Positions 93-43,108 of a stretch of DNA of 43,274 nucleotides are shown here, in pieces; positions within the stretch are counted from its first letter, which is position 1; every line of letters starts with the position of its first letter. Source of the DNA: a virus. The DNA lies in IMG/VR virus record IMGVR_UViG_3300014838_000003, positions 1 to 43,274 of that record; one strand, 5' to 3'. The translations under genes and the position numbers were made by a program. The notes under the pieces are model-generated. The model saw only the letters and a list, made by a program, of their open reading frames with translations. It had not been told where the DNA came from and made no database searches.

Positions 93-199
93 TGGGGGCA
101 GCCCGCCGAGTCGACGCAGCATTCGCCGCCCTCACCTCGCTGGTGATCCAGTCAGCCGTGTTCCCCGTCGAGAGCCACGGCCCTCGGGAGCAAACGTAA
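2..199 (+). CDS. Small protein of unknown function, 3' part (gene continues from 43097)
   Basis: This is the downstream part of a 94-residue gene that starts at 43097 and crosses the joined ends of the circle. The frame enters at codon GCC (2-4) and ends at TAA 197-199. The last A is shared with the ATG of the next gene (TAATG). The protein is Ala/Arg/Trp-rich with no motif I recognise, and it ends with the residues GPREQT. Its neighbour at 42867 ends with the similar GSREQA because both genes stop inside copies of the same 28-nt repeat. The function is unknown. Unbroken reading through the circle join is the main support that it is real. Confidence 0.7.
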   Translation, partial: AIAAAGWDLRNAVEAERLAWVAIGQLDPPDVGAARRVDAAFAALTSLVIQSAVFPVESHGPREQT

Positions 200-210
200 T
201 GAGCGTCAAG
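183..210 (+). repeat. Start-associated repeat, copy F
   Basis: This 28-nt stretch contains CTCGGGAG, TAATG and the first codons of the gene at 199. It matches 43081-43108 at 27 of 28 positions. It supplies the GGGAG ribosome-binding sequence for the start at 199. Confidence 0.85.
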
Positions 211-456
211 GCGCAAGAGTTTTACACGGCGGTCTGCGACGACTGCGGGTCCACCCTGGCCGAGATCATGGACGAGGACGACGGCGGGGGCTGGCGGTTC
301 AACGACGAGGACGCCATCGAGGCGGCTCGGGACATGGACTGGCTGGTCACCGAGGACGGCAAGCACCTGTGCGCGAACTGCCGCACCGACCAGCCCGATC
401 CCGTCGTGGCTCCCGATGCCACCGATTCTCAGACCCAAGCGGAGGAGAAGACGTGA
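199..456 (+). CDS. Small acidic zinc-binding protein
   Basis: This is an 85-residue protein. It carries CDDC at about residues 13-16 and CANC at about 57-60, a two-knuckle zinc-ribbon arrangement with an acidic, Trp-containing segment between. No catalytic motif is visible. The chosen ATG overlaps the stop of the previous gene as TAATG and lies behind GGGAG inside a repeated start-associated sequence. A longer upstream reading has no better start. The C-terminus (TDSQTQ) is encoded by copy A of the repeat family that recurs at neighbouring gene junctions. A nucleic-acid-binding or protein-adaptor role is possible. I cannot assign a function. Confidence 0.75.
   Translation: MSVKAQEFYTAVCDDCGSTLAEIMDEDDGGGWRFNDEDAIEAARDMDWLVTEDGKHLCANCRTDQPDPVVAPDATDSQTQAEEKT
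421..439 (+). repeat. Start-associated repeat, copy A
   Basis: The sequence ACCGATTCTCAGACCCAAG is followed at once by GGAGGAG and the GTG start at 453. Related copies lie at 992, 1555, 1771 and 2222. The repeat is coding here, at the end of the gene at 199. Confidence 0.8.
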
Positions 457-770
457 GCCTTGAATCCCGACTGAGGGAACTGCTCGCGCTGGCTGACGGA
501 GAGGACCCCGAGGACGCGCTAGGGCCGCCACCGTGGACGGTCGAGCAGGCTGCGCCGTGGGAGGCGCGCCACGGGCATGACGTCCGCCTCGGATGCCTCT
601 CGGTGGATTCGTGCGCCGTCGTCGAGGCGGTCCACGAGGCTGCTGTGAACGCTCTCCCGAAGCTCCTGGAGTGCGTGGACCTGCTGCGGGACGTGCAGAC
701 CATCGTGGGCTCGCAACAGTCCCGGGACCGCATCCGTGCTGCTCTAGCATCCCTGGAGGACCCATCGTGA
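453..770 (+). CDS. Hypothetical protein, 105 aa
   Basis: GTG start overlapping the previous stop as GTGA, with GGAGGAG 6 nt upstream, which fixes the start. The protein is largely helical and acidic, with a Leu-rich N-terminus (SLESRLRELLALADGED) and a C-terminal helix of about 40 residues. I see no catalytic motif, membrane segment or paired cysteines. It sits in the early cassette region between a zinc-ribbon protein and the gene before the methyltransferase. Its function is unknown. Confidence 0.72.
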   Translation: MSLESRLRELLALADGEDPEDALGPPPWTVEQAAPWEARHGHDVRLGCLSVDSCAVVEAVHEAAVNALPKLLECVDLLRDVQTIVGSQQSRDRIRAALASLEDPS

Positions 771-1018
771 GTGCGAGAGGTATGAGGCCCACCAACTTCG
801 GCCCCCGGCAGCGAATCAGCCGCCCATCAGGGTGGAGCGTATACGACGATGAGGGGAACCTCATCGGTGACGTGCATGGCGGACGCGCCAGACAGTTCGA
901 CGCGGTGACGCTCAGCGGCAAATTCCTCGGAACCTTCGTCAGCCAGGGCGGGGCGGTCAGGGCTGTCCGACGGGAGGCAGGGGTGACCGACAACACCGAT
1001 TCTCATGCCCAAGACTGA
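767..1018 (+). CDS. Hypothetical protein, 83 aa
   Basis: GTG start at 767 overlaps the upstream stop (GTGA) and has GGAGGA at 755-760. The residues SGWSVYDDEGNLIGDVHGG and the following KFLGTF segment suggest a small beta-rich fold. The C-terminus ends TDNTDSHAQD, encoded by copy B of the start-associated repeat, and overlaps the start of the methyltransferase by 14 nt. I see no enzymatic motif. The function is unknown; as the methyltransferase's direct neighbour it may be co-expressed with it. Confidence 0.7.
   Translation: MSARGMRPTNFGPRQRISRPSGWSVYDDEGNLIGDVHGGRARQFDAVTLSGKFLGTFVSQGGAVRAVRREAGVTDNTDSHAQD
992..1013 (+). repeat. Start-associated repeat, copy B
   Basis: The core ACCGATTCTC (995-1004) runs directly into the ATG of the methyltransferase at 1005. 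It differs from copy A mainly where CAGA has become CATG, which creates the start codon. Confidence 0.8.
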
Positions 1019-1622
1019 GTACCGAACCATCGTCGCGGACCCGCCCTGGCAGCCCGCCCTGGGGGGAACGTGGGGAGCCCGGATCGACAAGGGAAGGGGC
1101 CAGCGGTTCTACCCGCTCATGTCTCTGGCCGAGATCACGGCCCTGCGAGTGCCCGCCGCCGAACAGGCCCACCTGTGGCTCTGGTGCCTCAGTCAGCACG
1201 TCGATTGGGGCTACGAGGTCGCCCGAGCTTGGGGGTTCGAGCCGGTCACTCTGCTGACGTGGTGCAAGCCCGGCCTGGGCGTCGGACGCTTCCGCTGCAA
1301 CACTGAGCACGTCCTGGTGGCCCGACGTGGGAGCCGCCACGGCAACCCATTCGGGCGGGGTGGACGCCACGCTCAGGCCACCGAGGGGACGTGGTTCGAG
1401 TGGCCGAGGGCAGAGCACTCTCGGAAGCCCGACGAGTTCTACGAGCTGGTAGAGCGCCTGTCACCGGCTCCCCGGCTGGAGATGTTCGCTCGCACCTACC
1501 GGGTCGGCTGGGACTGCTGGGGCAACGAGGTCGAGAGCGACATCGAGATCGCCGCTGATAACACCCAACGGAACACCGATTCTCAGACCCAGGAGCGCCG
1601 ATGCCTGAGCCGACCCCGTTGA
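1005..1622 (+). CDS. MT-A70 family N6-adenine methyltransferase
   Basis: This 205-residue protein carries DPPW at residues 12-15, the catalytic motif of MT-A70-type adenine N6-methyltransferases, right after a short beta strand (YRTIVADPPW). Further support is the WLWCLSQ strand, an ARAWGF helix, and a C-terminal block EHSRKPDEFYELVERLSP leading to LEMFAR, typical of the family. The expected reaction is transfer of a methyl group from S-adenosylmethionine to adenine N6 in phage DNA, which could mask restriction sites or alter regulation. No restriction endonuclease or specificity subunit is adjacent, so it looks like an orphan enzyme. The last 30 or so residues (from AADNTQ) read through a repeat copy and look like an appended, non-conserved tail. 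The end overlaps the next gene. Confidence 0.92.
   Translation: MPKTEYRTIVADPPWQPALGGTWGARIDKGRGQRFYPLMSLAEITALRVPAAEQAHLWLWCLSQHVDWGYEVARAWGFEPVTLLTWCKPGLGVGRFRCNTEHVLVARRGSRHGNPFGRGGRHAQATEGTWFEWPRAEHSRKPDEFYELVERLSPAPRLEMFARTYRVGWDCWGNEVESDIEIAADNTQRNTDSQTQERRCLSRPR
1555..1590 (+). repeat. Start-associated repeat, copy C
   Basis: Positions 1555-1584 match 1771-1800 at 27 of 30 bases. The core ACCGATTCTCAGACCC is followed by AGGAG and the ATG at 1601. Here the repeat is coding (tail of the methyltransferase gene). Confidence 0.88.
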
Positions 1623-1774
1623 CCGACGAGCCGCATTGGGCGAAGGACTGGAGCAAGATCGTGTGCCCCGAAGGATGGACCTACGTCACCGACGTGGACC
1701 ACGACGACGGCACCTGCGCCGTGTATCGGGACGACGCCACCGGGAGGACGGTGCATGTCGAGCTTCCCGACTGA
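1601..1774 (+). CDS. Small acidic protein, 57 aa
   Basis: ATG start preceded by AGGAG at 1591-1595 within repeat copy C. The product is Trp/Asp-rich (EPHWAKDWSKIVCPEGWTYV), with a following segment DHDDGTCAVYRDDATGRTVHVELPD that looks like a short beta meander. Two cysteines are present but do not form a zinc pair. The 5' end overlaps the methyltransferase by 22 nt. It ends with TGA inside repeat copy D. It resembles small beta-hairpin proteins common in phages, but I cannot name it. Confidence 0.65.
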   Translation: MPEPTPLTDEPHWAKDWSKIVCPEGWTYVTDVDHDDGTCAVYRDDATGRTVHVELPD

Positions 1775-1807
1775 TAAGACCCAACGGAACACCGAGTATC
1801 GGAGTGC
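1771..1807 (+). repeat. Start-associated repeat, copy D
   Basis: This is the non-coding counterpart of copy C. It begins with the stop of the gene at 1601 and runs through ACCGAGTATCGGAGTGC to just before the ATG at 1816. It provides GGAG as a ribosome-binding site. Confidence 0.88.
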
Positions 1808-1815
1808 AGGCCAAG

Positions 1816-2271
1816 ATGGCTGAGACGACGACGGTGCTGCTCTGCGCCTCTGCGCGAGACAGACTCCCGCACAAGCCCCACGATGAGCCCTTCTACGAGG
1901 GCGAACCGAAACCGGCGTTTCACTGTCCTGGGTTCCCGCCCCTCGGCCTGGACGAGGCCACCCGCACCCCGACCACCGCGGACGAGTGGCGCCAGGTGGC
2001 GGAGACGATGGCCGACGAGGTGGACCGGCTGCGGACCGAGGTGGACCGGCTCACCCGGGACGTGCCAATGGCCGAGTGGGGACCTGATGGCACTTACTGT
2101 CGGACCTGTGGAGGCGTATCCCCCGACTGGTACGACCCTGACTATCACGGGCTCCCCGAGGTAGCCGGTCGGTACCACCGAGGGCACAAGGACGGCTGCC
2201 CTCGGAACACCGAGCCAGCCGCCGATAACCGCCCGGTCAGCACCGACTATCGGGAGCAACCTCATGGGTGA
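1816..2271 (+). CDS. Zinc-binding protein with a short coiled coil
   Basis: This 151-residue protein starts at ATG 1816, downstream of GGAG in repeat copy D. A short heptad-type segment (EVDRLRTEVDRLTRDV, about residues 70-85) predicts a coiled coil. It is followed by a putative zinc site: CRTC, then a HRGH segment and a final CPR. The C-terminus reads into repeat copy E. The coiled coil plus zinc knuckle suggests an oligomeric nucleic-acid- or protein-binding factor, but this is inference. An in-frame upstream start near 1636 would overlap the preceding gene extensively and lacks a ribosome-binding site, so I rejected it. Confidence 0.72.
   Translation: MAETTTVLLCASARDRLPHKPHDEPFYEGEPKPAFHCPGFPPLGLDEATRTPTTADEWRQVAETMADEVDRLRTEVDRLTRDVPMAEWGPDGTYCRTCGGVSPDWYDPDYHGLPEVAGRYHRGHKDGCPRNTEPAADNRPVSTDYREQPHG
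2222..2258 (+). repeat. Start-associated repeat, copy E
   Basis: The core ACCGACTATCGGGAGC (2242-2257) precedes the ATG at 2264. It is more diverged than copies A-D and shares CGGGAGCAA with copies F and G, which links the two sequence types into one family. Confidence 0.7.
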
Positions 2272-2512
2272 CCGGCCGCCACTCAGAAAGTACGCCAAGG
2301 CCCTCGCCGTCGAGGTCCACGCACTCCGACGTCAGCTTGCCACACCGAGGAGCAATGAGGCCGACCGGCCAGTCGCGCCCACTTCACCGCAGGACACCGA
2401 TGACGCGGCATCAAACTGCACCGCTCAGGCGGGTGAGCCACCCGAGGGCTGGACGGCTGGCCGTGAGGTCGGCCCCACGTCCCAGGATACTCGGGTTGAC
2501 AGTGAGTTGTGA
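2264..2512 (+). CDS. Hypothetical protein, 82 aa
   Basis: ATG start behind CGGGAGC of repeat copy E, overlapping the previous gene by 8 nt. The N-terminal 27 residues form a basic helix (LRKYAKALAVEVHALRRQL). The rest is low-complexity, polar and probably disordered (TSPQDTDDAASN and similar). The 3' end runs into the promoter for the next operon. No family recognised. Compositionally it is the weakest gene in this block, and the overlapping +1 frame is almost equally open. Confidence 0.5.
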   Translation: MGDRPPLRKYAKALAVEVHALRRQLATPRSNEADRPVAPTSPQDTDDAASNCTAQAGEPPEGWTAGREVGPTSQDTRVDSEL

Positions 2513-2877: not shown

Positions 2878-3200
2878 CCGTCTGCCGTCACCCGGGCTGC
2901 GAGAACGAGGCGACCCAGCTCGCCTCGCGCGCCGGGGTCGTGCTCGCGGCGGTCTGCGCGGACCACCCCGAGGACTTCCGGCCGCTCACCGAGTACCACG
3001 ACCACCACTTAACCGTCGCGGAGCGCCTGCTGGTTGACAAGATCGAGGCGCTCGTCAAGTTCCGCACCACGCTCGCCAACGTCAAGCTCACCGACCTGAC
3101 CGTGAGCGACATGGCGATGGACATCGTCTCCGCGCTCTTCGGTCCCCACTGGCGGGGCACGGTGCGCGAGCATCTGGATGAGATCGAGGTGTTCCGGTGA
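2874..3200 (+). CDS. Zinc-finger-like protein, 108 aa
   Basis: GTG start at 2874 overlaps the upstream stop by 4 nt. The N-terminus has CRHPGC followed about 24 residues later by CADH, a C-x4-C ... C-x2-H zinc-binding pattern seen in small phage and actinobacterial DNA-associated proteins. The remaining 75 residues form helices (LTVAERLLVDKIEALVKFRTT and others) without enzymatic residues. It sits directly upstream of the Cas4-like nuclease with GTGA coupling, so it may be an accessory of the recombination or replication complex. That link is inferred from position. Confidence 0.75.
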   Translation: MTVCRHPGCENEATQLASRAGVVLAAVCADHPEDFRPLTEYHDHHLTVAERLLVDKIEALVKFRTTLANVKLTDLTVSDMAMDIVSALFGPHWRGTVREHLDEIEVFR

Positions 3201-4045
3201 GAATCCGCCAGGCTGCCGCTTGCGACGTTCGCTCCATTCTCGACGCCGCCTTCGCGGTGCGGGACACCGACCCCGGCTTCTTCGCCATGTGGCTGCGGGA
3301 CGCGCTGGCGAGCAGCGAGGAGCACGTCACCCCTCCGGCTGACGATTGGGTCCACTACGCCTCGGCCATCTCGGGATGCCTCCGGCGCAGCGTCTTCGAG
3401 CGCGACCCGGCTGTCGTTCCCGAGGAGTTGCGGGTCGAATCCCGCTCGACCTTCATCATCGGCGACCTCTACCACGCGCTCCTCCAGATGGGCCTCGCGG
3501 TCCACCCCGACTACGTCCTGCTCGCCCACGAGGTCGGCGGGCGCATCCAGGACGGGCGGGCGATGGCGACCCGGCTGTCGGCCCGCTGCGACGCCGTCTT
3601 CGAGTTCGAGGGCCACGTCGCCCTCATCGAGATCAAGACCGAAAGCCCGTTCGCCCCCAAGATGCGCCGCGCCGACGCCACCGCGGCGGGCCGCGACCAC
3701 ACCGCCCGCCCCGAGCACGTCGACCAGCTCACGGCGACGGCTTGGGTCCTGAGCTTCACGCACCCGCACCTGACGATCGGGAGCGGGTGGGTGGTCTACG
3801 TCAACAAGGCCGATGGGGACATCGACCAGCAGCAGGTCCCCATCGACGACGTTCACCGCATCGCGGCGCTCGTGAACGGCCGCGACCGGGCCTGGGAGGA
3901 CTTCACCTTCGAGGGCGATGGCGGGCTGCCCGAGCGGCTGAAGAGCTACCCCGGCGGGCTGTGCGCCCCCCGATCCACCACCGACCCCAGGGGGAAGTGG
4001 TGCCAATACCGCACCCACTGTTCTGAGGTGATCGACCGTGCCTGA
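3197..4045 (+). CDS. Cas4/RecB-like exonuclease with a probable Fe-S cluster
   Basis: This 282-residue protein matches the PD-(D/E)XK layout of Cas4/RecB-family nucleases. It has motif I GDLYH (89-93), a core Asp at about 132 (SARCDAVFEF), E145-x-K147 (LIEIKTE), and a QxxxxAW motif near 177-183. Four cysteines, C61 (SGCLRR) and C256, C269, C275 (C-terminal, WCQYRTHC), are placed as in Cas4 and AddB, where one N-terminal and three C-terminal Cys hold a 4Fe-4S cluster. It would degrade DNA ends to make single strands for annealing. The start is GTG at 3197, overlapping the previous stop. The gene immediately downstream encodes a RecT-like protein, giving an exonuclease/annealase pair like lambda Red. 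No CRISPR array or cas1/cas2 is nearby, so a CRISPR-adaptation role is unlikely. Confidence 0.88.
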   Translation: MRIRQAAACDVRSILDAAFAVRDTDPGFFAMWLRDALASSEEHVTPPADDWVHYASAISGCLRRSVFERDPAVVPEELRVESRSTFIIGDLYHALLQMGLAVHPDYVLLAHEVGGRIQDGRAMATRLSARCDAVFEFEGHVALIEIKTESPFAPKMRRADATAAGRDHTARPEHVDQLTATAWVLSFTHPHLTIGSGWVVYVNKADGDIDQQQVPIDDVHRIAALVNGRDRAWEDFTFEGDGGLPERLKSYPGGLCAPRSTTDPRGKWCQYRTHCSEVIDRA

Positions 4046-5291
4046 CCAGGAAATCATCGAGGCCCCGGCGCCGCGCGCGGGCGTGGTGGGCGAGGGCCTG
4101 GAGCGCCTCGTCCCGCAGGACATGGCCCAGCTCGCCTGGATGGCGAAGACGCTCGCGTCCAGCGGCATGTTCCTGAAGTCGCTGGCCCAGGGCAGGAACG
4201 TTCCGCTCAACGCGGCCGAGACGTTCGTGGTCATGCAGGAGGGTATAGGGCTCGGGCTGTCTCCGCTCCAGGCCCTCCGCGAGATCGCCGTGGTCGAGAG
4301 CCGCGGGCGCCTGACCACCATCCCCAGCGCGCGGGTGGTGAGCGGGCGCATCCAGGCCGACCCTCGGCTGGAGAGCTGGGAGGCGACCGGCGACGCCACC
4401 AGCTTCACCGTGAAGGCGAAGCGGAAGGGCAGGCCCGCGATCGAGGTGACCGTCTCGGTCGAGGAGTTCTCCCAGGCCGAGGTCAACCGCCACCTGGAGC
4501 ACCTGGAAGACTGGCTCTTCGCCCGCGCGGTGCGGCGCCTGGCCCGGCGCGGCTTCTCGGACATGCTGCTCGGCATCTACGTCGGCGGCGAGCCCGAGGT
4601 TGTGGACGCGGTCGCGGTCAACGTGGCCGCCTTGGAGCGCGATGCGGGGACGGACGGCGTCTATGGCCGTCACGACGACGGCGGCTCCTGGATTCTGTGC
4701 GGCGGCCCGAACGGCGGCGCCTACCTGCGCTGTGAGCGGTGCGGCGCGACCTCCCCGCCGCCCCAGGAAATCCGCGACGTCATGCGGGGACGCGCGGAGG
4801 AGTACCGCATCGAAGCCCCGGCGCCGACGCAGAGCCCCACCCAGCCGCCGCTGGAGGAGGGGGAGCGCCCAATCGCCCCTGCGGACCTGGAAGGCGTCGC
4901 CACGGCCGTCCCAGAGGCGCCGGAGGGCCTCCCCCCGATCGGCAACCCGGTCCCCGGGGTGCCCCACCCCATCGACGTTCCCGACATCGACCCCGAGAGG
5001 GGGGAGGAGGTGATGCCCGATCCAGACGCCATGGCGTCCAGACCCGATGCAACGGCGCCCCCGGCCGAGACCGCACAAGAGGCCGGGGGCGTACTGGACC
5101 GCAACGACGCCATCGCAAGGCTGATGGAGCGGATCGGGGAGATGCGCCACGGGCCCGCCGAGGTGAAGGCGGAGCTGAAGAACGCCCTGGCCCAGATGGG
5201 CTGGCAGGAGCGGACGCCGCTGGGCGGCTGGGTGGTTGCCCAGACCGACGAGGTCGTCCTCGACCTGGCGTTGAAGCTGGGGGTGGCGTGA
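4038..5291 (+). CDS. RecT-like single-strand annealing protein
   Basis: This is a 417-residue protein. Residues about 30-115 fit the RecT-type annealase pattern: MAKTLASSGMF, then VVMQEGIGLGLSPLQALREIAVVESRGRLT (GxGLGLxPxQAL...I.V..GR.t), then a strand/loop region and SVEEFSQAEV. Residues about 222-240 hold CGG and CERC, a small zinc-ribbon-like insert that is not a usual RecT feature. The C-terminal 150 residues are Pro/Ala-rich and probably flexible, ending in a folded helical segment. It should anneal complementary strands made by the upstream Cas4-like nuclease, in recombination or replication of the genome. Start is GTG at 4038, overlapping the nuclease gene by 8 nt. Confidence 0.78.
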   Translation: MPDQEIIEAPAPRAGVVGEGLERLVPQDMAQLAWMAKTLASSGMFLKSLAQGRNVPLNAAETFVVMQEGIGLGLSPLQALREIAVVESRGRLTTIPSARVVSGRIQADPRLESWEATGDATSFTVKAKRKGRPAIEVTVSVEEFSQAEVNRHLEHLEDWLFARAVRRLARRGFSDMLLGIYVGGEPEVVDAVAVNVAALERDAGTDGVYGRHDDGGSWILCGGPNGGAYLRCERCGATSPPPQEIRDVMRGRAEEYRIEAPAPTQSPTQPPLEEGERPIAPADLEGVATAVPEAPEGLPPIGNPVPGVPHPIDVPDIDPERGEEVMPDPDAMASRPDATAPPAETAQEAGGVLDRNDAIARLMERIGEMRHGPAEVKAELKNALAQMGWQERTPLGGWVVAQTDEVVLDLALKLGVA

Positions 5292-6018: not shown

Positions 6019-7977
6019 CTATGCCACCGTCACGAGCGTCAGCAAGACGTCGCCTTCCATGTCCGGGACGCCGTTGCCGGGGTCGCGCGTGAGCCCCGGA
6101 GGCGCGCCGTTCGAGGTGGTCCACTGGTAGTCCTGGAGGATCGCCTGCACTTGCGACACGCCGTCCGTCCCCGCCGGGTCCGGCACCCACAACGTCACCG
6201 ACCCGGCCGCTAGCCGGTAGGCGTTCACGATGTTGGCGAGAAGCTCCTGCCCGGTGACGCCCTGGGGGTCGGCCTGGCCCAGCGGGTTGCGACCCTGCTG
6301 ATCGCGGCGACAGGCGACGGTGACCGTGTAGACCGGCGCCAGAGTGGCGAGCACGGACCAGAGCTGGATGTCGGGCTGGCGCGCGCCCACGAGCGTCACC
6401 TGGAGCTGCACCGATTGGCCGATGGTCCCCTGCGGGAAGCAGCAGACCAGGCGATCGTTGGTGGGGGCGACGGCGACGGGGAGCGCGGTCCACGCCGCGT
6501 TCAGGGAGTTGAGACGGAAGCTGACCGTGATGGCAAGGGGGTTGAGGGTCGCGTTGTTCATGATGAACTCGACCGACGCGAACCGCTTGTTGGTCGAGGG
6601 GGTGTCGAAGTCGTAGAAGCTGGAGACGATGGTGCCGTCGCTGGACGACGCTCCGGCCGCGGGCTGGAGGATGTACCAGTTTGCGGTCCCATCGTGCTCG
6701 GCGATCGAGCCGCCGGGGCCAAGCGCGCAAGCGTAGTGCGTCCCGGTGGTGGACGCCGCCCCCGCGACCGGGTTGCCGATGTCGGAGACGGCGCCCGTGG
6801 TGAGGCGGTAGCGCTTGGTGTTGAGCCCCGGCCAAGAGAGGTAGAGCCAGCTCGCGTCCGAGGAGAGCTGACCATGAGCGGTTGCGCCCGCCCCTCCCGG
6901 CTGGAAGGCCGCGTCGAGCTGGGTGTAGTCGTCGAAGGTGGAGAGCGTCGACCCGCTCAATTCGTAGATGACCGGGTACATCGCACCCGTCGCGGTCGAC
7001 CCCCAGCACAGGATGTAGGTCACCCCATTGGCGGTCTCGATGTCGAGCGGGACCTCGTCGACGACCCCGATCAGGACGGCGTCGGTCCCGTTGAAGGTGT
7101 AAAGCTCGCCGGTGTGGGTGCCGAACACGAGGCCGTCGACGCCGCATCCGATGATGTCGATGGGGGATTCCAGGATGGGGCAGGTATACACCAGCACCCC
7201 TGCCGCGGGAAAGGGCGGGGCGAACTGGTAAATCTCGCAAGGGGTCACCCCGACCGTGGCGGGCCGGGCGTTGCATACGCACCATAGGGAGCCCGCGAAG
7301 TAGGCCAGGGACAAGACGCTGAGTTGGGAGGTCTCGACCTGGGAGATCGTGACGTATCGCTGGTCGCCGGAGAGGAGGGCGGCCTGGAAGACGCCTCCGG
7401 TGAGGGTCGCGAAGTACGTCTCCCCGCGGTTCAGACCGTGCGTGATGATGCTGGTGGGGGTGCCGGTGACGGTGGCCGGGAACGACAAGGGCGTCGTCTG
7501 GAACTTCTGAATCTCAGCGCCGCCGTCCAGGAACGCCATGAACGCCCCGCCGCCCCCGCCGGGCGACACGGAGATCGACTTGCCCTGCCCCGACAGCGCC
7601 ACCAGCGCCGACGCCGTCGTCTGCGAGGTGTAGTTGCCCGCGCACGTCAGGTGCCCGGGCTTGGAGGTGTCGACCTGTTGCGAGGAGTAATACTGGTTCG
7701 CGGTCGCGTAGACCACTTGACGCTCGCCGCCCGACCAGTCGCCCTGAGAGACGCTGGGGTAGCGGCCGTAGCGGTCGCTGCTCGACGGCGATGCGATCTG
7801 GACCAGGTGCGTCTCATCCTGGAGGTCGGTGCTCTGCTGCCAGCCCGTGTTGGGGGCCATCACATAGCCCATCATCTGAATGTCGCCGGTTGCGACGTCG
7901 AGGAAGCCCAGCGCCAGGTCGTAGGTGGGGCCGACCAGGGCCATCTTGTCGGGGGTGAGCGCGCCGATGTAGCTCAT
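6019..7977 (-). CDS. Large beta-rich virion protein, probable tail component
   Basis: This 652-residue protein is made of alternating short beta strands and Gly/Ser/Thr-rich turns, for example repeated segments of the type DGLVFGTHTGELYTFNGTD and TANWYILQP. This suggests a beta-propeller in the middle, followed by a C-terminal beta domain (LWSVLATLAPVYTVTVACRRD). Such proteins are common in short-tailed phage tails. It lies between the ClpX-like ATPase (ATGA overlap) and the terminal membrane-protein gene. I see no enzymatic motif. I call it a virion protein from composition, length and position; the exact tail role is unknown. Confidence 0.7.
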   Translation of the reverse strand: MSYIGALTPDKMALVGPTYDLALGFLDVATGDIQMMGYVMAPNTGWQQSTDLQDETHLVQIASPSSSDRYGRYPSVSQGDWSGGERQVVYATANQYYSSQQVDTSKPGHLTCAGNYTSQTTASALVALSGQGKSISVSPGGGGGAFMAFLDGGAEIQKFQTTPLSFPATVTGTPTSIITHGLNRGETYFATLTGGVFQAALLSGDQRYVTISQVETSQLSVLSLAYFAGSLWCVCNARPATVGVTPCEIYQFAPPFPAAGVLVYTCPILESPIDIIGCGVDGLVFGTHTGELYTFNGTDAVLIGVVDEVPLDIETANGVTYILCWGSTATGAMYPVIYELSGSTLSTFDDYTQLDAAFQPGGAGATAHGQLSSDASWLYLSWPGLNTKRYRLTTGAVSDIGNPVAGAASTTGTHYACALGPGGSIAEHDGTANWYILQPAAGASSSDGTIVSSFYDFDTPSTNKRFASVEFIMNNATLNPLAITVSFRLNSLNAAWTALPVAVAPTNDRLVCCFPQGTIGQSVQLQVTLVGARQPDIQLWSVLATLAPVYTVTVACRRDQQGRNPLGQADPQGVTGQELLANIVNAYRLAAGSVTLWVPDPAGTDGVSQVQAILQDYQWTTSNGAPPGLTRDPGNGVPDMEGDVLLTLVTVA

Positions 7978-17562: not shown

Positions 17563-18543
17563 CTACCTCACGCGTGACTGATTACCAGTGGGCATCGTGG
17601 TCGGCGACTGGACGTAGGGCTGGAACTGACCGAACGCCCCGCCCGACGCCTTGAAGGTCGAGAGCGGGCTGGCGAGGTTCTGGATGGCCTGCTGCGAGGT
17701 GAAGCTGTTGCCGTACCGCTCCGAGAGCGCCTGCTTGTTGGTGAGCTGGTAATTCTGGAACTGGTTGTACGAGGTCATCCCGTATTGCAGGTAGCCGTAT
17801 TGCGAGTTGAGCGCCGGGTTCTTCTGGATGTAGTCGGTGATCTGGCCCGCCGACCAGCCCTGGGTGATCGCGGTGGCGAGCTGCGACTGGTCGAGGCCCG
17901 CCGACGCCCAATCATCCTTGCCGGTCAGCTCGAAGACGGTGTCGTTGAGGGCGTTGGCCGCCTGTGAGTATTGGGTGGCATTGAGGCCGGTGAGCGCCCA
18001 GGGCTGGGCCGTGGTGTCGACGCCGGTCACCTGGGCCATCCAGGCGAAGAGGGTCTCCGAGCTGGCGTCGGCCATCCCCGCCGCGAGGCCCTGGTTCAAC
18101 TGCTGCGGGGTGAGCAGGTACTTCCAGCCGGTGTTGGCGGCGAATGTCTGCGCCTGGCTGTAGAGCTGCCAGAAGTCACCGGCGTATTGCGGCGGCAGCG
18201 ACCAGCCCGCGAACGGGTTGCCGCTCTGCGCGCCGCCCTGAGCCTCGTAGGCCGACTGCTCCTCGGCGACGAAGGTGGCGCCCTCGCTGGAGGCGGGGAC
18301 GCCCTCGGCCATGAGCGCCGTGACCTCGGGCGCGAGTGCCTGGTCGAGCCCCTGGGAGCTGAGGGCGTTCGAGACCGTGGAGGCGTCGGTCGGGTCGGTG
18401 GTTAGCGTCGGTGCAGGCGGCGTCGCTGCCGGTGGGGTGGGCGTCGCTGCTGCTGGGGTGGGCGTCGGCGTCGGCGTCGGCGTTGCTGGGGTGGGCGGCT
18501 TGACCGGGTCCTGGCTGTTCGACCCGCCGCCTGCAACTGGCAT
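17563..18543 (-). CDS. Internal virion protein candidate with repeat module and Pro/Thr linker
   Basis: This 326-residue protein has an N-terminal low-complexity linker of Pro, Thr and Ala (about residues 17-50), encoded in part by (GGCGTC)n. The body has helical segments with Ala/Gln. Near residues 220-290 it carries the module GWSAGQITDYIQKNPALNSQ..GMTSYNQFQNYQ, related to one in the proteins at 20129, 20445 and 18543. It is coupled by ATGA to the transglycosylase-like gene upstream. I place it with the ejected internal proteins of short-tailed phages by position and by this shared module. Confidence 0.62.
   Translation of the reverse strand: MPVAGGGSNSQDPVKPPTPATPTPTPTPTPAAATPTPPAATPPAPTLTTDPTDASTVSNALSSQGLDQALAPEVTALMAEGVPASSEGATFVAEEQSAYEAQGGAQSGNPFAGWSLPPQYAGDFWQLYSQAQTFAANTGWKYLLTPQQLNQGLAAGMADASSETLFAWMAQVTGVDTTAQPWALTGLNATQYSQAANALNDTVFELTGKDDWASAGLDQSQLATAITQGWSAGQITDYIQKNPALNSQYGYLQYGMTSYNQFQNYQLTNKQALSERYGNSFTSQQAIQNLASPLSTFKASGGAFGQFQPYVQSPTTMPTGNQSRVR
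18461..18484. repeat. Hexanucleotide tandem repeat GGCGTC
   Basis: Four units (the last ends in T) encode Pro-Thr pairs in the linker of the 17563-18543 protein on the opposite strand. Such repeats can change length by slippage without a frameshift, altering linker length. Confidence 0.8.
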
Positions 18544-37972: not shown

Positions 37973-39583
37973 TCATGGCGGGGTGAGGAACCCGCGCCAC
38001 CCGCTACCGTTGGCGAACGTCCGAACCGCCCCCTTGGGGGTCCGGTGGTGACAGATGGCGAGCGCATCCTCGATCCGCCGGACCCTGACGATCTGGGCCG
38101 TCCGGGCGATGGCGAGAGCGGTTGCCCGGCCCTCCGGGGTTGGCGGCATCCCACCCATGCCGCCACCGATGCGGCCCGAGTGCGCCTCGCCATCCGACAA
38201 CCAGATGCGCGGCCCGCGCTGGCGGGCGAGCCATTCGAGAGCCTCCAGGTCGCTCATGTTGCAAGTGTCCCACTCATCCGCCACCGGTTCGGCCCAGCGG
38301 CCATCCCGGGCGAGGATGCAGATACGCGGGCAGCGACGTTCCGAGCCATCCGCGCCGGTCTCAATGACGGCCCCATGCGCGGCTACCGTAAGCCCGGGAA
38401 GCTCGCGCATGGCTGCGCTCAGAGCGTCCCAGTCCCATCCCATCGAGCCGGAGATGTCGATGGCCATGGCGCCGCCCGGCCGCGACGCGGCGAAGACGCA
38501 CCGGTCTCCGGCCCGCCAACGCTCGGGCCGGAGGACACTCGACCCGTCAATCCGGGTACCGCGGCGGAGCTTGACGGGGCGTGTGCCCACTCCGCGGCGG
38601 ATGTGGTCGTGGATCAACCCGGCCGGGTTGGCCTCCCGGGGCAGGAGACCTGCCAGCGGCGCACGTTCGTTCGGCTCGTCTGTTTGGTCCTCGGCCTCCT
38701 GACGCTCCGCCGCCGCCCGGCTCGCCGCCGTCCTCACGGCCGCCTCGATCCTCTCGGTTAGCTTCCGTTCGGCGTGTGGGTCGCTCCGCTTCCACGTGGC
38801 GGGCTCGGTGGCGCCCAGGGTGCCAGCCCGGGGCAACTCATCCGTCACAGCGAATTCCGGGACCTCCCCGCCGCATCCGGTGGGGGTGACGCGGGTTTCG
38901 CGGCGGCCCGGGGCCGCGCCATCGCCCGCTCCGCCGCCGCCCGGCTCGCCGCCCGTGCCCTCTCCGTCACCCTCGGACCGCTTGGCGGCCGGAGGGTTCG
39001 GCAGGGTTCGCCACCATTCCGCCGCAGCGGTCGCGGTCGCAGTGGTCGGGTCCGCAGCGATCCTCCCCACCCATGCCGCCGCATCCGCCGTCAGCGGCCC
39101 CATGACATCCGCGAGGCGCCGCAGCGCGGCGCCCAGCTCGGCCGGACAGCCGGGCCGCGGGGCAGGCTTGCCCGTCCGGCCGAGCGCGCCCGTCCCCGCT
39201 GTCAGTGCTACTTGCCAGAACCCCAAGACCGCATCCCGCGCGTCCTTCGTGGCGCGGGCCGCGGCCAGGATCGTTGGCGCGGCCCCGTCATGCCGACGGG
39301 TGACGTCTAGGTCCCCCACCCGCGCCAGGACGTCCATTCGGACCTCCTCAGCCATGCGGAGCGGGGGGTCACACGCCACAGGCGGAGTGTGGGCCGCGTG
39401 GAGTGCCTCGTGGAGCCGGATAGCCTCTTGTGGCGGCCCGGTCGGGTCGGGCAGGGTCAGCACCCGGTCGCGAGGGTTGGTGCTCCCATTGTTGGGGTCA
39501 GGGTTGCGCTCAACCCGCCAGGGTTCGCGCCGGTCGGCCCTCGCCCAGACTTCGGGGTGCGCTGCGACTACGTGACCTTTCAC
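37973..39583 (-). CDS. VWA protein with HEXXH metallopeptidase-like N-terminal domain
   Basis: This 536-residue protein starts at GTG 39583, overlapping the AAA+ stop (GTGA); a start at 39661 would overlap more. Near the N-terminus HEALH (58-62) is an HEXXH zinc motif, with EEVR (79-82) in the place where similar proteins have a third ligand (ED.R-type). A Gly/Pro/Ala-rich low-complexity part follows (about 215-280). The C-terminal VWA domain has a MIDAS: DISGS (376-380), DTCN (T440), and D464 in WLSDGE. It resembles CobT- and ViaA-type VWA proteins that work with MoxR ATPases. The ATPase would use the VWA domain to reach a substrate or a metal-dependent partner. No function is known for the phage forms. 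Confidence 0.85.
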   Translation of the reverse strand: MKGHVVAAHPEVWARADRREPWRVERNPDPNNGSTNPRDRVLTLPDPTGPPQEAIRLHEALHAAHTPPVACDPPLRMAEEVRMDVLARVGDLDVTRRHDGAAPTILAAARATKDARDAVLGFWQVALTAGTGALGRTGKPAPRPGCPAELGAALRRLADVMGPLTADAAAWVGRIAADPTTATATAAAEWWRTLPNPPAAKRSEGDGEGTGGEPGGGGAGDGAAPGRRETRVTPTGCGGEVPEFAVTDELPRAGTLGATEPATWKRSDPHAERKLTERIEAAVRTAASRAAAERQEAEDQTDEPNERAPLAGLLPREANPAGLIHDHIRRGVGTRPVKLRRGTRIDGSSVLRPERWRAGDRCVFAASRPGGAMAIDISGSMGWDWDALSAAMRELPGLTVAAHGAVIETGADGSERRCPRICILARDGRWAEPVADEWDTCNMSDLEALEWLARQRGPRIWLSDGEAHSGRIGGGMGGMPPTPEGRATALAIARTAQIVRVRRIEDALAICHHRTPKGAVRTFANGSGWRGFLTPP

Positions 39584-40605
39584 CTCGGCCTCGTCCCGCG
39601 CTTCTGGATGTCTTGGCCGCCATCCGCCCATTCGTGCCATTCGGCGAGACACGCGGAGCACTTCAGATGCGCTACCCCGCCCCGCTTGAAATCCGTTCGC
39701 TGCGCGATGTCGCAGTTGCCCGGGTCGGACCCGGTGCCGGTCTGCCCGCAGTCAGGGCACGTGAGCGTGTGGTCGTCGACGCCGACGACTACCACCGTGT
39801 CGGTGTCGCCGCTCGCCCGGTTGCGGGCGCTCTCACCCTTGATCATCTGCAAGCTCTCCAGCCATGCCCGCAGCTCGTCTCCTGTGTCCTCACCCATGAT
39901 CGCCAACGCCGCGGTCTCATCGTCGATCCCCGCCGCTCTCGATTGGCAGAAAGAAAGGCAATCGCGGTAACTCGGCCGGGGACCGATCTCCCATTCGGAT
40001 TGGGGGAGGGCCGCGTATGCCCGCTCAACCCAGACCCGAACGTCATGGTCAAGCCGGGCGAGTTGCCCGGCGCTCGGTCGCAGAACTGCAATCCGCATCG
40101 CGAACCGATCTCGCAGCGCGTCTGATAGGACGAGGCTACCCGCGTTTTGGGTGGCGATGCATCCAAACTCGGCCCGGGGCCGCAGGATGGTGCCAAGTGC
40201 AGTAGTGTCGGTCGCGATGCTCGGGTCATCCAATGCGTTGATGATGCGTTCGTGGCAGTCTGCCGATCCCCGGTGCAGCTCATTGACGATCCATAGGCCG
40301 CCGTGATGCCAGGCGCGCTGACCCGGCCCCTGAGCTTCCCGCATCCCGCCCGTCTCATTGGGGACGAGACCTCCCCAGATGCGGGATTCGAGGGTCTCGG
40401 ATGTGAGGGTCACCTGCCACCAGGGCCGAGTTTCGGTCCCGTTCAGACTGCCGAAGAGGGTAGACGCCCGGGCGATCTCGACCGCTAGCGCCGTCTTGCC
40501 GGTCCCAGGCGGCCCCACGAGCAGGACCCTCTCTCCGCCGTTCGGGAAGCGCTTGCGAATGAGATCGGGAACGGTGTCCCGCGGTATCTCTCGCGCTGTT
40601 GCCAT
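39580..40605 (-). CDS. MoxR/CobS-type AAA+ ATPase with C-terminal zinc ribbon
   Basis: This is a 341-residue protein. ATG 40605 is preceded by GGAGG at 7-8 nt. Walker A is GPPGTGKT (31-38), sensor 1 TQN (152-154), and the arginine-finger segment RDRF (165-168). The Walker B region reads GGLWIVNELHRGS with N108-E109, so the usual Asp is Asn, which may weaken ATP hydrolysis or change metal binding. The C-terminus (281-325) has CPDC and CSAC, a zinc ribbon absent from standard MoxR proteins. The stop overlaps the VWA start, giving a MoxR-VWA pair like CobS-CobT or RavA-ViaA. Confidence 0.87.
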   Translation of the reverse strand: MATAREIPRDTVPDLIRKRFPNGGERVLLVGPPGTGKTALAVEIARASTLFGSLNGTETRPWWQVTLTSETLESRIWGGLVPNETGGMREAQGPGQRAWHHGGLWIVNELHRGSADCHERIINALDDPSIATDTTALGTILRPRAEFGCIATQNAGSLVLSDALRDRFAMRIAVLRPSAGQLARLDHDVRVWVERAYAALPQSEWEIGPRPSYRDCLSFCQSRAAGIDDETAALAIMGEDTGDELRAWLESLQMIKGESARNRASGDTDTVVVVGVDDHTLTCPDCGQTGTGSDPGNCDIAQRTDFKRGGVAHLKCSACLAEWHEWADGGQDIQKRGTRPR

Positions 40606-42220: not shown

Positions 42221-42440
42221 CCACGTCTCCGCCACCGTCTCCGCCACCGAGCACCGCGCCATCGCGACGCGCGTCTGCCTGGAGGCCCGCGAGCGGCTCC
42301 GGTTCGCCGAGAGCCACATGCGGGTCGTGGACAGCGACCAGGCGCGCGAAATCTGCCGCCAGCTCATCGAGGCCGTCCGCGTCGTGGACGTGCCCCTGCG
42401 GGGCCTGGAGGACCACAAGCTGCCGAAGGTGGTCAAGTGA
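42213..42440 (+). CDS. Hypothetical helical protein, 75 aa
   Basis: Overlaps both neighbours (start inside the previous gene, stop overlapping the next GTG). The sequence SATEHRAIATRVCLEARERLRFAESHM and SDQAREICRQLIEAVRVVDVPLRGL predicts two or three helices with a Leu/Val core. No motif. Could be a small DNA- or protein-binding helical bundle. Confidence 0.65.
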   Translation: MPDHVSATVSATEHRAIATRVCLEARERLRFAESHMRVVDSDQAREICRQLIEAVRVVDVPLRGLEDHKLPKVVK

Positions 42441-42652
42441 CCCTCTCGCCCGCCCAGAGCCGCGTCTACCACGCCCTGCGTCGCCTGAGCGACGACACCG
42501 GCTTCCCGCCGACCATCCAGGAGGTCGCCCGCGCCGCGAACGTGAGTTTGGGGTACACCTACACCACGCTGCGCCTGCTGGCCGCCGAGGGGTGGATCAG
42601 GAGCCGCGGCGGGAAGTACCTGCCCATCGACCTGACCGGAGACGAGAAGTGA
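42437..42652 (+). CDS. LexA-type winged helix DNA-binding protein, 71 aa
   Basis: The whole protein is a LexA N-terminal-like winged helix: LSPAQSRVYHALRRLSDDTGFPPTIQEVARAANVSLGYTYTTLRLLAAEGWIRSRGGKYLPI, with the G.PPT..E.A.A......T...L..L...G.I.R pattern. The peptidase half of LexA is absent. It may bind operators in phage or host DNA without self-cleavage. GTG start at 42437 overlaps the previous stop. Confidence 0.85.
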   Translation: MTLSPAQSRVYHALRRLSDDTGFPPTIQEVARAANVSLGYTYTTLRLLAAEGWIRSRGGKYLPIDLTGDEK

Positions 42653-42870
42653 CCAAGAAGCGTCCCGCGGGGGCGGCGCCGGAGCCCGTGCAGAGCCGTC
42701 CAGGCGCCATCCTCATGTACCCGGTGTGGCACCCGATCGTCGGGCAGCCCCGCGCCCTGGAGGAGCACGTCGGCTGGGTCCGCGTGGACCTGATCGGCGT
42801 AACTCCGCCGTGGTGGCTGGGCGAGCCCGGCCTCGGACGCATCGACCCGGAGCGGAGGGAATGGCGATGA
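42649..42870 (+). CDS. Hypothetical protein, 73 aa
   Basis: GTG at 42649 overlaps the LexA-like stop (GTGA). After a basic, Pro-rich start the product has GAILMYPVWHPIVGQPRALEEHVGWVRVDLIGVTPPWWLG, rich in Trp and Pro. It appears as a small strand-turn protein without cysteine. No family recognised. Confidence 0.65.
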   Translation: MTKKRPAGAAPEPVQSRPGAILMYPVWHPIVGQPRALEEHVGWVRVDLIGVTPPWWLGEPGLGRIDPERREWR

Positions 42871-43097
42871 CCCTGCGTGAAGTGCTGGAGCAGCTCCGCG
42901 ATGGCGGCTGGGACCTCCAGGACAACTCCGGCCAGCTCGGCGAGCCCGCGGGCCTGCTGATCGCCTGGGGGCCGCTCTTGGGCATCGAGGCGCGCATCGA
43001 CGACCACCGCATCCTGCCCGCGGTCATCCTGCGCGTCGGCGGGGGCGAGCACGTCCTGGGCCTCGTCGTGGGGCATGGCTCTCGGGAGCAAGCGTAA
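42867..43097 (+). CDS. Hypothetical protein, 76 aa
   Basis: ATG 42867 overlaps the previous stop and is placed 7 nt behind GGAGG; ATG 42861 is too close to that site. The sequence (TLREVLEQLRDGGWDLQDNSGQLGEPAGLLIAWG and DDHRILPAVILRVGGGEHVLGL) looks alpha/beta. It ends in repeat copy G (GSREQA). Function unknown. Confidence 0.68.
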   Translation: MTLREVLEQLRDGGWDLQDNSGQLGEPAGLLIAWGPLLGIEARIDDHRILPAVILRVGGGEHVLGLVVGHGSREQA

Positions 43098-43108
43098 TGA
43101 GCGTCAAG
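43081..43108 (+). repeat. Start-associated repeat, copy G
   Basis: It matches 183-210 at 27 of 28 bases, including GGGAGCAA, the TAATG overlap and the first codons of the gene at 43097. The duplication spans a whole gene junction. Confidence 0.88.

Follow-up and report, generated by a model that had tools for sequence, protein, structure and literature searches.

IMG/VR virus record IMGVR_UViG_3300014838_000003 carries a family of short related sequences at the junctions of a run of small genes, and the question raised by this locus is what these copies are for. They had first been described as elements lying just before gene starts (the original prediction), reminiscent of the start-associated sequences (SASs) of cluster K mycobacteriophages. 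Our analysis of the whole stretch of 43,274 nt (the window) favors a different answer, to which we give a probability of about 0.68: the copies are recombination junctions in an array of accessory cassettes, each consisting of a single gene.

A 92-nt direct repeat at its termini shows the window to be a circular assembly, and 43,182 bp of it are unique. Virion genes run leftward; the right and left ends join into a block of small genes that points rightward. Here we found copies at every position where they had been predicted, and we number the seven junctions by the start that follows: j1 (43097), j2 (199), j3 (453), j4 (1005), j5 (1601), j6 (1816) and j7 (2264). All seven copies, as well as the array and recombination genes described below, are on the plus strand; the copies span ∼2.4 kb of the circular phage genome, and a MAFFT alignment places them all in register.

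Family members were located by searching the genome on both strands. The 16-mer ACCGATTCTCAGACCC is exact at 421 and 1575, has two mismatches at 995, and is found nowhere else with four or fewer mismatches. An exact match to ACCGACTATCGGGAGC occurs only at 2242, and CTCGGGAGCAA has two exact matches (183, 43081) and one with a single mismatch (2249). The unique 43,182 bp contain the 9-mer CGGGAGCAA three times, always on the plus strand and with a start 13–14 nt further on. The copy at 1791 is a member mainly through its left half, and an extra partial copy, GGAACACCGAG, lies within gene 1816 (2204-2214) and is identical to 1786-1796. In leave-one-out scans of both strands with a position weight matrix, the five ACCGA copies ranked 1, 5, 1, 14 and 8. 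We also scored ungapped repeats (match +1, mismatch –2), using ten order-3 Markov sequences as the chance control. The control maxima were 16 to 18, and only the pairs 43064/166 (39/45 identical, score 27) and 1555/1771 (24/25, score 22) exceed them. The pair 420/1574 (18/18, score 18) only equals these maxima and is thus carried by its position.

Two pairs of copies each enclose one gene. Junction j1 (43064..43108), a 45-nt repeat that carries GGGAG, holds the end of gene 42864-43097 (VVGHGSREQA and stop), with which it is in phase 0, and extends four codons (MSVK) into the gene that follows. Junction j2 (166..210) holds the VESHGPREQT stop and an MSVK start. Together, j1 and j2 are direct repeats, with 284 nt between them, that bracket gene 43097 as a cassette; this gene (94 aa) starts at 43097, continues over the joined ends of the circle as an uninterrupted open reading frame (ORF) and stops at 199. 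Similarly, direct repeats at 1555 and 1771 span the stop/start junctions around gene 1601 (1601..1774; 57 aa, function unassigned).

Marks of exchange between copies are visible at two junctions. The copy at j5 (1555..1592) is a chimera, with its left half as in j6 (1771..1806) and its right half as in j3 (420..438). The left half matches the 1771 copy at 24/25 positions and the right half matches the 421 copy at 18/18, with the switch falling within CACCGA. Counted on either side of the core, j5 and j3 agree at 5/23 positions to the left and 13/15 to the right (Fisher P = 1.6e-4), while the corresponding figures for j5 and j6 are 19/23 and 6/15 (Fisher P = 0.013). At j7 (2222..2260), the two sequence forms are joined, ACCGA at left and CGGGAGCAA at right. 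Ordinary local duplication, in which junctions were copied along with neighboring genes and are now decaying without any further role, would be consistent with the divergence of the copies and with the gene bodies between them, which appear unrelated. However, the chimeric j5 and the link in j7 require exchange between copies, beyond copying, and similar arrangements recur around the same gene in unrelated phages (see below). We regard simple duplication as very improbable.

The gene that recurs is gene 1005 (1005..1622), which encodes an MT-A70 family adenine methyltransferase (PF05063, 8.6e-21, residues 6–175) with an extra tail of 22 residues from j5. This repeat-coded tail starts at residue ∼183, where most viral homologues end; homologue ORFs stop at query residue 184 (median of 55), with 30 of the 36 viral ones ending at 179–186. 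The identity of 27/30 bases noted earlier between 1555-1584 and 1771-1800 was reproduced, as was the noncoding nature of the second of these copies. Yet the supposed contrast between a coding and a noncoding sister is incomplete, as the two lie exactly 216 nt (72 codons) apart and j6 shares the methyltransferase codon phase. This spacing, together with the stop codon of gene 1601, a TGA arising at the left margin of j6, would fit j6 being a displaced methyltransferase tail. Most simply, gene 1601 would have come in together with a second copy of the repeat and thereby severed the methyltransferase from its former tail. An in-phase TGA in j6 overlaps the ATG at 1816, an arrangement also seen in j7.

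When copies were crossed in silico, all 13 copy pairs removed whole genes (216 to 2350 nt), and in each of the 13 products the left gene read uninterrupted as far as a stop codon and the start of the right gene was preserved. Given the common codon phase and the start that follows, it follows that any crossover leaves the left gene a stop and the right gene its start. In the model that we propose, a junction would be a short stretch in which the final codons of a gene meet the leader or start of the gene after it. Homologous recombination at these junctions, probably through phage-encoded annealing, would insert, delete or exchange whole genes. The copies would themselves have been generated by recombination, and they would persist as substrates for it, not mainly for translation. 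The array is a composition island, with third-position G+C of 0.70–0.88 in its 8 genes versus 0.84–0.96 in 10 neighbors (Mann-Whitney P = 0.001).

Judging from sequence, the likely agent of recombination is the adjacent pair of exonuclease-like and RecT-like genes at 3197-5291, which would carry out the exchanges. The first protein (3197..4045) matches phrog_1706 (3.2e-9; label 'CRISPR/Cas system associated') and has no Pfam or NCBIfam match; it may act as an exonuclease and possibly as partner of an annealing protein. The second (4038..5291) is a weak candidate for a RecT-like annealing protein, with a partial match to phrog_561 (4.7e-7; 4.4e-8 in another search) and a structure model that is not usable (mean predicted local distance difference test score 45). 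Rad52-like phage recombinases are reported to be active on short, diverged sequences in the relevant part of PMC3945230. Directly after the array, at 2498-2526, TTGACA and TACAGT stand ∼18 nt apart, and these elements are likely to form the promoter of the exonuclease/RecT-like block. In a separate observation, phages Quhwah and MementoMori (L061, L062), both with repeated start-linked motifs, were found to encode an exonuclease and an ERF-family annealing gene.

To what extent are the copies start-associated? All lie within 32 nt of a start, but the spacing is variable and 6 of the 7 fall within the 3′-terminal coding sequence of the gene upstream. From the ACCGA anchor, the start is 32, 10, 26, 25 and 22 nt away, and from the CGGGAGCAA anchor 14, 14 and 13 nt. 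A Shine-Dalgarno (SD) sequence is included in j1, j2 and j7, and is separate or absent in j3, j4 and j5; the GGAGGAG ahead of GTG 453, for instance, is separate from j3. Start 1005 falls within its own element (j4, 989..1013, encloses the start codon) and has no SD at a usable distance. All six coding copies are in phase 0 of the upstream gene, an outcome expected in ∼0.4% of cases by chance if the copies are independent. These data indicate that the copies are tied to stops no less than to starts.

They also bear on the possibility that the element is regulatory, with a protein or RNA binding to it in DNA or mRNA and setting downstream translation or transcription, as proposed for cluster K. 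Its presence on a single strand, its proximity to starts and its overlap with three SD sequences would all fit such a role, and start-linked repeated motifs are common in actinobacteriophages, according to the portions of PMC3203893 and PMC7302621 concerned with them. Against it stand the spacing of 10–32 nt, the array start that has no copy and the missing SD at 1005. Moreover, RNA folding of the seven junctions revealed no common shape (z from –2.4 to +1.2), one copy is chimeric, the family is limited to the composition island, and six of seven copies are coding. A regulatory function thus seems unlikely as the main explanation. As a class, the cluster K-type SAS was rejected on spacing, location and sequence, and we retain it only as a rival function; the element differs from GGGATAGGAGCCC, bearing out the earlier remark that its sequence is unlike that of cluster K. 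In Anaya, 7/8 SAS hits are 3–8 nt from a start, none of the 8 is wholly within a gene and 3/8 overlap a gene end. For the Quhwah motif, 11/11 hits are intergenic, in gaps of 60–211 nt.

Coding in a single phase raises another alternative, that the copies specify a C-terminal peptide tag (consensus T-D-S/Y-Q/R-x-Q) directing the proteins to a common fate such as targeting or turnover. The tails contributed to upstream genes are TDSQTQ, TDSHAQ, TDSQTQ, TDYREQ, HGSREQ and HGPREQ, so that 6/6 coding copies share one phase and end in Q. Differences among j3, j4, j5 and j7 number 4, 9 and 12 at codon positions 1, 2 and 3, which would also fit a conserved peptide. However, the four ACCGA coding copies differ by 6 synonymous and 13 nonsynonymous codon changes, which counts against pure peptide conservation. 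In addition, 43064/166 differ 3, 1 and 2 times by codon position, the repeat extends into the next gene, the distance to the stop is not fixed, and one copy is noncoding. We therefore hold a tag to be quite improbable. The initial view that DNA or RNA is conserved rather than peptide draws support from the 13/19 nonsynonymous differences, but it leaves out that all coding copies keep a single codon phase.

We looked for close relatives in phage records, IMG/VR and the genome set, using as queries the motif, the terminase, the capsid, gene 40954, gene 1816, gene 199, a tape-measure-sized protein and nucleotide similarity. None was found; the motif returned 0 matches and the terminase one distant locus, and only the methyltransferase gave homologues. 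Scans with the methyltransferase returned 36 viral loci, 19 genome loci and 191 phage records; of these records, the two examined were Fosterous and Mcklovin. Of the 55 homologue loci, L005 and L010 were removed as duplicates and three others lay too near a contig end, leaving 50 in which flanking repeats could be assessed; the Fosterous and Mcklovin loci described below stand outside this count. Direct repeats, with sequences other than those of the window, flank 6/50 homologues (L004, L007, L008, L017, L019, L027) versus 4/547 other ORFs of the same loci (exploratory P = 4e-5), or 4/48 when two palindromic, attC-like cases are excluded (exploratory P = 0.002). Among control ORFs, repeats flank 0/144 of 400–800 nt, 4/329 shorter and 0/74 longer ones, and two of the four matches belong to the L027 array itself.

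In L027, five gene starts around the methyltransferase share the 21-nt CAATGAGTAGAGAAGAAGCAA or a near form (0, 1, 0, 1 and 4 mismatches), and all 4 copies with three or fewer mismatches in this 42-kb contig fall within ∼1.5 kb. These starts encode MSREEAI-like leaders on unrelated bodies, one of which is a ten-codon remnant. A second junction repeat was noticed in the same contig (6347-6369 / 6636-6658), where adjacent genes have a common C-terminal WQALKGEG. In L005, the methyltransferase 3′ end is present three times, twice without a body, and the repeat in L017 and L019 provides the methyltransferase with a short new tail and its stop. Fosterous and Mcklovin, two Gordonia phages belonging to different genera, have in common a 609-nt methyltransferase cassette of 99.7% identity. 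It begins at the upstream stop, takes in the methyltransferase and ends 13 nt inside the following gene, with no other shared sequence in 8.1 kb; the neighbors are unrelated, and only VTADPA is shared at the start of the next protein. Both cassettes lie near RecE and RecT genes. We note that the Fosterous methyltransferase (L073:3609-4187, NC_055775) is annotated from 3711, whereas the identical Mcklovin frame begins at 3609, so that the annotated start is probably too late.

Two homologues point to a different mechanism. In L007 and L008, on contigs classed as viral, the methyltransferase is flanked by long attC-like palindromes (L008:497-596 and 1168-1267; L007:815-935), and it seems to be an integron-type cassette. 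Integron-like, site-specific recombination in the window itself would also agree with its pattern of one gene per repeat. However, the window contains 0 attC pattern hits, its elements are not palindromic, and no tyrosine integrase or resolvase family match was found; we consider this mechanism extremely unlikely here. The wider idea that MT-A70 genes in unrelated phages recur in, and perhaps seed, single-gene cassette arrays, shuffled by RecET-type recombination through self-made, integrase-free repeats that keep frame and start, is offered as a doubtful speculation. A literature search on methyltransferase cassettes with flanking repeats turned up nothing pertinent, which is not proof of absence from print.

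Several observations weigh against the recombination-junction reading or its extension to other phages. The start at 767 is an array junction without a copy. The searches yielded no relative in which the site is empty or rearranged, and hence no insertion or deletion has been observed for this phage. At 18–25 nt, several copies are close to the minimum length for homologous recombination, and the SD sequences in j1, j2 and j7 mean that selection on translation may also preserve copies. The RecT-like protein lacks a Pfam, NCBIfam or PDB match, making its assignment weak. With respect to the homologues, the flanking-repeat test was devised after a repeat survey had shown such repeats at L004, L005 and L008, and the control ORFs were mechanical calls. 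Flanking repeats are missing from 44/50 testable loci, including all testable ones among the 19 from cellular genomes. Finally, the upstream genes at the left boundary of the Fosterous and Mcklovin cassettes are in different frames, indicating that phase keeping is not general.

Among known systems, the closest is gene 68 of the cluster I mycobacteriophage Island3, as presented in the section of PMC3029335 devoted to it. This single gene lies between ∼50-bp repeats, explained by recombination, and the last 18 residues that it encodes match the C terminus of the upstream product. The likeness is in a gene set between tail repeats at junctions; in our array, too, direct repeats cover stop/start junctions (43064/166 for gene 43097, 1555/1771 for gene 1601) and upstream C-terminal codons lie within the repeat in 6/7 copies. 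Island3 has one gene and one repeat pair, whereas the array has seven junctions, one of them with a chimeric copy, and two linked sequence forms. In cluster O, Corndog gene 14 and YungJamal gene 60 are likewise single genes between direct repeats of 17 or 24 bp at stop/start junctions, but these are isolated cases that have relatives to compare; in relatives without the gene, the repeat is single copy, as stated in the pertinent part of PMC4351075. Short conserved boundary sequences between phage modules have been put forward as targets of homologous recombination in the discussion of this topic in PMC3233612. The proposed mechanism is the same, but there the sequences are compared between phages, and here a whole array is in one genome.

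Regulatory-type repeats resemble the array less closely in position. Cluster K SASs, as characterized in the relevant portion of PMC3203893, contain AGGAG, are placed 3–8 nt from the start and in most cases come after gaps >50 bp. They share with the array their repetition, single orientation and location at non-structural gene starts; the array differs in its variable spacing and in having copies in coding sequence. The Microbacterium cluster EC/EI motifs are described in part of PMC7302621 as asymmetric, upstream of the ribosome binding site and present in 5–12 repeats; the repetition is similar, and place and spacing differ from those of the array copies. The array is thus an unusually developed form of arrangements already described (boundary sequences, Island3 gene 68). 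The novelty lies in how many junctions a single genome holds, in the visibly recombinant copy and, on the exploratory test, in the recurrence around one gene family. Whether exchange exactly at gene boundaries reflects targeted boundary recombination or random joining plus selection is stated to be an open question in that discussion (PMC3233612). An array with a recombinant copy, and with parallels in other phages, offers a tangible case for testing the targeted model. It also cautions against taking every repeat at a gene start to be regulatory.

The remaining array genes are small. Gene 199 (199..456; 85 aa) has a weak match to phrog_17873 (residues 7–63), and its tail holds j3, which encodes TDSQTQ in phase 0 and is 18/18 identical to 1574-1591. 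Genes 453 (453..770; 105 aa, no PHROG or Pfam match) and 767 (767..1018; 83 aa, no Pfam match) have no assigned function, and the tail of the latter, NTDSHAQD, holds j4. Gene 1816 (1816..2271; 151 aa), also without an assigned function, ends in RNTEPAADNRPVSTDYREQPHG, which comprises the partial copy and j7, and gene 2264 (2264..2512; 82 aa, third-position G+C 0.70) is the last of the array. Elsewhere in the window, 42437-42652 encodes a protein with a LexA-type DNA-binding domain (PF01726, 2e-6), a candidate regulator. An exact 27-nt direct repeat (38703-38729 / 38927-38953) lies within the leftward open frame 37973-39661, and an imperfect short tandem repeat (GGCGTCGCTGC...) is found in a gene region at 18419-18490.

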